Below are positions 6,131-6,353 of a stretch of DNA of 56,333 nucleotides, piece by piece. The stretch is taken from positions 1-56,333 of the forward strand of contig CASDPF010000018.1 in assembly GCA_949282215.1 (NCBI GenBank), written 5' to 3'. The notes below the pieces were generated by a model, which searched no databases, was not told the origin of the DNA, and was given only the letters and a program-made list of their open reading frames with translations. The stretch is from an uncultured bacterium. GTDB lineage: Bacteria; Cyanobacteriota; Vampirovibrionia; Gastranaerophilales; Gastranaerophilaceae. The translations under genes and the position numbers were made by a program. The first letter of the stretch is position 1, and each line of letters opens with the position of its first letter.

Positions 6131-6353
6131 TAGTTTAGAATAGTAATACAAAAGAAAAGGAGGGTGTATGCAAAAGACGCTAATAGATAGAATTTCGGGG
6201 GGGGGGGCTACCAGCTAACAGTTATAGCAAGCATTTCCGACTTAGACCTCCGATTAGAAGAAAAAGAGCAGAAAAGTAAGCCGTGCCAACAGACACGGTG
6301 ATTTATGGTGTGAAAACTGTTAAAATAGAAAATAGTATATAAACGGAGGATTT
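6131..6353 (+). repeat. Prepilin leader repeat, copy 1
   Basis: Contains a TAGAAT -10-like site (6136-6141), a strong Shine-Dalgarno site, a short ORF from ATG 6168, a run of 11 G (6197-6207), the invariant CCTCCG (6247-6252), a CCGTG/CACGG hairpin ending near 6298, and CGGAGG (6344-6349), the ribosome-binding site of the prepilin starting at 6354. CCTCCG is exactly complementary to CGGAGG, so the leader could mask the prepilin ribosome-binding site. The same order of parts recurs in three other complete copies. Confidence 0.85.
6168..6218 (+). CDS. Leader ORF copy 1 (16 aa, G-run inside)
   Basis: MQKTLIDRISGGGATS, with AGGAGG just upstream. The G run encodes the Gly stretch, and the zero frame stops at TAA 6216-6218 directly after it. 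A second frame, entered by adding one base (or a -1 ribosome shift) on the G run, is open from GGC 6206 to TGA 6299-6301. It encodes GYQLT..ISDLDLRL..KPCQ.TR, conserved in the other copies. The full product would be about 44 residues. Whether the short or the long form is made cannot be told from sequence. Confidence 0.5.
   Translation: MQKTLIDRISGGGATS

Follow-up and report, generated by a model that had tools for sequence, protein, structure and literature searches.

Leader ORFs with a G-run and an anti-Shine–Dalgarno sequence as probable phase-variable attenuators of prepilin genes in Gastranaerophilales

Upstream of prepilin genes in an uncultured member of the Gastranaerophilales lies a short leader which probably makes of each site a phase-variable attenuator, controlled by a leader ORF, of the single prepilin gene that follows. 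The device would work in this way. A promoter upstream of the leader would yield a long mRNA, on which a short leader ORF with a run of eleven G (G11) would be translated from its own strong Shine–Dalgarno sequence (SD). Further along, CCUCC(G) would pair with the downstream prepilin SD, (C)GGAGG, and hide it, a hairpin standing between the two. At G11, and also at G10 or G13, the leader would stop ahead of CCUCC, so that the SD would remain paired and the gene would be OFF. A slip of the tract by +1 to G12 (or by -2 to G9) would place the leader in the sole frame that continues without a stop past CCUCC as far as the hairpin; ribosomes on the leader would then strip both the anti-SD and the hairpin, and prepilin translation would be ON.

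The anatomy of the leader, the conservation of its pairing, the frame rule and the differences in tract length between copies can be read in the sequences themselves. What we infer is slippage: within a population the tract would change its length, pairing would lower translation of the gene and read-through would raise it. The chances seem to us evenly balanced that Gastranaerophilales genomes carry dozens of such attenuators, slipping independently and each gating one prepilin through its anti-SD, with cells displaying a small and shifting subset of at least 150 prepilins.

The leader and its copies in the window

The elements follow one another in this order: promoter, ribosome-binding site (RBS), a 16-codon ORF (MQKxxIDRISGGGATx, the last residue being N, D or S), G11, CCTCC, hairpin, CGGAGG and the prepilin ATG, with the TAA of the leader ORF 31 nt ahead of CCTCC. 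A sigma70-like promoter (at least 9/12 match) lies upstream of the leader in 92% of the copies, against 26% of shuffles. The leader start is supported by variants that keep the frame and the ..SGGGA.. end: TTG replaces ATG in one copy (L082), and the N-terminus is replaced in two others (L093, L135).

The window, that is, the whole stretch of 56,333 nucleotides that was analysed, holds four copies, all on the forward strand. In the first, a sigma70-like promoter directly precedes the leader RBS GGAGG (6159..6163) and the leader ORF MQKTLIDRISGGGATS with its stop (6168..6218), read in the G11 frame and predicted to be OFF; its G11 tract (6197..6207), of phase-variable type, sets the frame. Then come the anti-SD CCTCCG (6247..6252), the palindrome GCCGTG-N8-CACGGT (6280..6299), which is terminator-like and shares bases with the -35 of a putative internal promoter, the corresponding -10, TGT-TAAAAT (6321..6326, 24 nt past CAC), found in this copy only among the four, the prepilin SD CGGAGG (6344..6349) and the prepilin gene (6354..7094), with its N_methyl domain (PF07963). 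The second copy has its leader ORF MQKAHIDRISGGGATD with stop at 7221..7271 (G11 at 7250-7260), CCTCCG at 7300..7305, the hairpin at 7333..7352, CGGAGG at 7404..7409 and the prepilin, from its ATG at 7414, at 7414..8040. In the third, the leader ORF MQKISIDRIRGGGATN with stop (23465..23515) shows ATTC+G12 in place of ATTTC+G11: as G12 follows ATTC, total length and frame are unchanged. Its CCTCCG lies at 23544..23549, its hairpin at 23578..23595, its SD at 23642..23647 and its ATG at 23652, the prepilin ORF being frameshifted downstream. This gene (23652-24369) is split, the frame that begins at the ATG stopping about 34 codons on, while the remainder (DUF6613) is in another frame, in an ORF from 23782. 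The fourth copy comprises the leader ORF MQKTLIDRISGGGATN with stop (50383..50433, G11 at 50412-50422), CCTCCG (50462..50467), the hairpin (50496..50513), the SD (50561..50566) and the prepilin (50571..51251). N_methyl (PF07963) was found in three of the window's prepilin genes, the other one being frameshifted.

The CCTCCG and CGGAGG sites of the original prediction were read directly at these places, 97, 104, 98 and 99 nt apart, with a hairpin CCGTG-N8-CACGG in between. The two strands of the window carry 17 CCTCCG sites between them, where 4.0 +/- 1.9 would be expected, and it has the 16-mer ACTTAGACCTCCGATT 4 times against 0.29 expected (at most 3 mismatches).

Copy number and distribution

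The genome (G000; 2.19 Mb in 45 contigs, 98% complete) contains about 60–70 leader copies: the 16-mer is present in 32 exact copies and some 27 with 1–2 mismatches (about 59 cores), and some 68 strong matches come from a covariance model trained on 30 copies. In a sister species (G010) there are about 39 leader matches and at least 33 copies. At E<=1e-4 the model matched 4 of 117 genomes of the family, 3 of them in this genus and the fourth weakly, and the full element is found almost only in this genus. These sequences are assembly consensuses, one per species, in which several copies lie at contig ends and the paralogues are non-independent. A search of Rfam 15 matched the leader to no known riboswitch or RNA family, and the leader core was unmatched in viral contigs. 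The 16-mer also has matches in genomes of unrelated organisms (Haloarcula, Bdellovibrio, Chloroflexi and others); a scan of their loci found no G-run leader, and we took them to be chance.

Some copies are peculiar. At a contig end (L001:1-120), the 5' part of one copy, with G7 and rich in GC, is unlike all others and is likely an assembly chimera. Another locus (L100, in G006) has a G-run of 18 and dozens of added bases before the conserved ..GGGGCTGCCAACTAACAG segment. In G031, TTC+G-run sites number 28, against 24 for the reversed control pattern, among many G or C runs unrelated to the leader.

The prepilin repertoire is large, with at least 150 ORFs bearing a prepilin N-terminus (N_methyl) in the 2.2 Mb of this genome, of which up to about half have a G-run leader. 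Two genes used below as leaderless controls (L247, L259) have a G11 or G12 run near the prepilin start (CAATTAG11, ACAG12); as these runs lie in other contexts, the 71 TTCG10+ sites undercount the tracts of the genome.

The palindrome and a possible internal promoter

Between CCTCC and the prepilin lies the palindrome CCGTG-N8-CACGG, the spacer of which is exactly 8 in all 83 canonical and all 19 divergent copies. In canonical copies it forms a 6-bp stem, mostly with 5–6 T within 9 nt, and is only terminator-like; a clear T6 terminator is confined to the G005 type. In that genome, four loci (L125, L167, L198, L204) have variant leaders of a spacer-paired kind, followed by a strong T6 terminator. 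Past the palindrome a -10-like box, TAN3T, is frequent: it stands 21–24 nt beyond CAC in 37 of 82 canonical copies and, among 19 divergent loci, at exactly 24 nt in 12 and at 21–22 nt in 4. The constancy of this distance (24, sometimes 21–22 nt) is also apparent at L102, L111, L124, L103, L140 and L145, as at 6321-6326 of the window.

It is possible, if rather doubtful, that the palindrome is mainly a DNA operator and the -35 region of an internal promoter giving a short prepilin mRNA free of anti-SD, and that the anti-SD merely silences RNA reading through from the leader promoter. The invariable spacer and the TAN3T at its fixed distances speak for this, as does GTGACA-17-TATAAT in three loci (L102, L111, L124). 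Against this, 45 of the 82 canonical copies are without a -10 and their palindrome is equally conserved, variants keeping 5/5 pairs by way of G-U; the frame rule, moreover, is left unexplained. A CRP/NtcA-type regulator was not found in the genome (98% complete), which gave no CRP-family gene with PF13545 (HTH_Crp_2) or PF00027 (cNMP_binding) at E<=0.001. A CRP/NtcA operator as the sole role of the palindrome is weakened both by this missing regulator and by conservation of the palindrome where the -10 is lacking. The two-promoter version is compatible with the attenuator, and the palindrome may be both hairpin and operator. It must be held against the attenuator that the -10-like element of those 37 copies, and of most divergent ones, could start a transcript without anti-SD.

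The G-run and the reading frame

The three frames past the G-run were read in 82 canonical copies, one chimera at a contig edge being excluded. In the G11 frame a stop comes 22–31 nt ahead of CCTCC in 82/82, and in the G10/G13 frame a stop also comes ahead of it in 74/82. The G12/G9 frame passes CCTCC in 82/82, usually to end at the hairpin or just before it, 16–85 nt beyond CCTCC (mostly 22 or 52). When this is widened to 159 leader loci from nine genome groups, no more than a single frame extends beyond 60 nt past the run in 149 of them, and this long frame crosses the anti-SD and the hairpin or else enters the prepilin itself. The G12 frame is kept open, its peptide not being conserved; a protein-coding constraint downstream in that frame is ruled out by common indels and nonsynonymous changes after the G-run.

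Tract lengths range from G9 to G13 across loci, leader copies with 10, 12 or 13 G occurring besides those with G11, and a locus with G12 (L104) has a close relative with G11 (L121). Coupled changes preserve the frame in some loci: ATTC+G12 in L025, GTTC+G12 in L146, GGGGGAGGGGG in L016. The long frame is realized at the observed length in 13 of the 159 loci, none of them among the 60 copies of the window's genome, where the ON frame is absent, and in relatives in 4/33 (G010), 5/15 (G005) and 3/19 (G068). In most leader loci of G005 it ends at a TGA within the 3' arm of the terminator, TCAGCC..GGCTGATTTTTT; fused loci and leader loci both occur in that genome. In another genus (g22, G068), 19 prepilin ORFs carry G10–12 inside their own 5' coding sequence, in frame at G11 in L180, L184 and L194, G10 and G12 being out of frame. 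From this frame analysis, translation of the leader ORF as set by G-run length is the most likely switch.

One may ask whether the DNA has to change at all. The tract is strikingly uniform, 55 of the 60 copies that de-duplication leaves in this genome having G11, and is almost always one base off the long frame, as would be expected if RNA polymerase or the ribosome slipped on G11 and gave each copy a fixed in-frame fraction, the DNA being unchanged. We find this unlikely. To reach the long frame, certain loci of a genome need a shift of +1 while others of the same genome need one of -1, so that a single programmed ribosomal frameshift is improbable; slippage by the polymerase, which yields both signs, survives this objection. 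The long frame is, furthermore, already present at the DNA level in some copies of G010, G005, G068 and G011.

Pairing of anti-SD and SD

Comparison of sequences supports the presence in the leader of an anti-SD complementary to the prepilin RBS. The proposal that CCTCC acts in this way on GGAGG gains from compensatory changes in relatives, from a swap of partners and from leaderless controls. When the comparison goes beyond the window, 85 of 86 copies retain CCTCC. Anti-SD and SD are combined as CCTCCG/CGGAGG (60 copies), CCTCCG/TGGAGG (10) and CCTCCG/AGGAGG (4), with rarer CCTCCT/CGGAGG (6), CCTCCT/TGGAGG (1) and CCTACG/CGGAGG (1); one copy has CGGAGT as its SD. The word 'invariant', as applied originally to CCTCCG, is therefore right of the five-base core and of the four copies in the window but not of all six bases. 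Independent variation of the two sites had been named as grounds for giving up the idea: it is seen at the outer G:C pair, uncompensated among recent paralogues (CCTCCT/CGGAGG), while pairing is maintained at deeper divergence. Since recent copies show no compensation at the outermost pair, it is the deeper comparisons that carry the claim.

There, the compensatory changes looked for in homologues were encountered in L110, L111, L116, L101, L198 and L204. The first has TTTCTCCAAA with TTTTGGAGG; L111 and L124 have CCTCCA with TGGAGG, L116 has ATCCTCTGTT with AACGGAGGAT and L101 has ATTTTACCTCC with GGAGGTAAAAT. Pairing in the G005 type involves the spacer between SD and ATG, not the SD itself (AATTTGCGAAT with ATTCGCAAAT). 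The pairing of leaders with their own SD is stronger than that with permuted SDs, at z=-5.5 (29 loci), at z=-3.0 (p=0.0017) when the G005 type is left aside and at z=-4.2 (p=0.00025) for 17 representatives, and the complement is absent from 19 leaderless prepilins of this genome (mean z 0.09 vs -3.06, p=1.2e-7), all p-values overstating certainty as paralogues are not independent. The base before GGAGG could not serve for a control against other genes, only 8 non-prepilin GGAGG genes being available, too few for use.

Folding of the leader

The original prediction also had the G-run pair with CCTCC, run length or ribosome position picking between this pairing and that of CCTCC with the SD. Such a pairing is always possible: a locus folds in that way (L028), and the RNAalifold consensus of 81 copies is a pairing of the G-run with CCTCC/TTTCC. 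Yet the columns concerned are nearly invariant, hence provide almost no covariation information, and in folding of the free RNA the G-run was a poor competitor, with an ensemble probability of 0.12 against 0.79 for CCTCC with the SD. The comparison of folds at different run lengths fared no better, passing from G8 to G14 moving the latter pairing from 0.83 to 0.58 only. G-runs are retained, besides, in loci of the G005 type, whose anti-SD contains no C-run, and in G068, which lacks the anti-SD, and we regard this competition as highly improbable.

Masking the translated leader makes the frame decisive for accessibility of the SD, which is 0.03 for G11, 0.08 for G10/G13 and 0.60 for G9/G12, as computed from bare-RNA models with a crude ribosome mask that counts the whole translated ORF as occupied. 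It could be objected to the attenuator that the anti-SD could pair again behind a ribosome in the G12 frame, unless ribosomes follow closely. Very improbable, finally, is that the two sequences are complementary merely through the spread of paralogues, CCTCC being kept for another reason (as a DNA or protein site, for example) and GGAGG as an SD: most copies are close paralogues and, among members of the family, the two bases of the outer pair change independently of one another, but divergent loci have compensated partners, the swap test tells against it and the G005 type pairs a different segment.

What the switch would mean

If the attenuator is real, massive phase variation of prepilins would let uncultured gut relatives of cyanobacteria vary their surface, and the switch would convert a slip in DNA into control, at the level of RNA, of a gene that is itself unchanged. 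This would also account for the predominance of the OFF frame among tracts in assemblies. Two loci of one streptococcal species are the sole related case that a search of the open literature gave. The reading is directly testable, with reporters in Escherichia coli and with long-read data from the gut.

Comparison with known systems

In translational attenuators of the erm type, translation of a leader ORF releases the SD from an anti-SD that lies upstream of it. The prepilin leader shares with them the leader ORF and an anti-SD upstream of the SD. We know of no stalling inducer for it, unlike the erm type, and its control input appears to be tract length instead. In homopolymer contingency loci such as those of Campylobacter and Neisseria, a poly-G or poly-C in the 5' coding region sets ON or OFF through the frame. 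The fused loci (G068, G005) fit this scheme directly, and here too tract length varies among loci and orthologues; in contrast, the tract of the window type lies in a separate upstream ORF and would act on the gene through RNA pairing.

Class II promoters of NtcA/CRP have GTAN8TAC centred near -41.5 (PMC3898017). An N8-spaced palindrome with a -10 some 21–24 nt downstream is a likeness, whereas the half-site is here GTG/CAC, more than half of the canonical copies have no -10 and a CRP-family gene was not found in the genome. Beyond the pil1/pil3 case, to which we now turn, a search of the open-access literature gave no phase variation in this lineage and no similar anti-SD switch.

In the pil1 and pil3 loci of Streptococcus gallolyticus, the number of repeats in a leader peptide decides whether the ribosome arrives at a terminator hairpin: the common length stops short, and at other lengths the ribosome runs on into the hairpin, which turns expression on (PMC3894217). 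As there, the repeat tract of the prepilin leader belongs to a leader ORF that precedes pilus genes and possesses an SD and a start of its own, and one frame ends upstream of the structure while another ends in or past it (82/82 here). The streptococcal tract is a pentanucleotide repeat acting on a transcription terminator, in two sortase-pilus loci; ours is G11, with an anti-SD and a terminator-like hairpin, in another lineage, and the type IV-like prepilin loci that carry it number about 60 or more in a genome. We may then understand the prepilin leader, in what analogy suggests is the best reading, as a variant of the pil1 mechanism to which sequestration of the SD would have been added and which would be deployed genome-wide.
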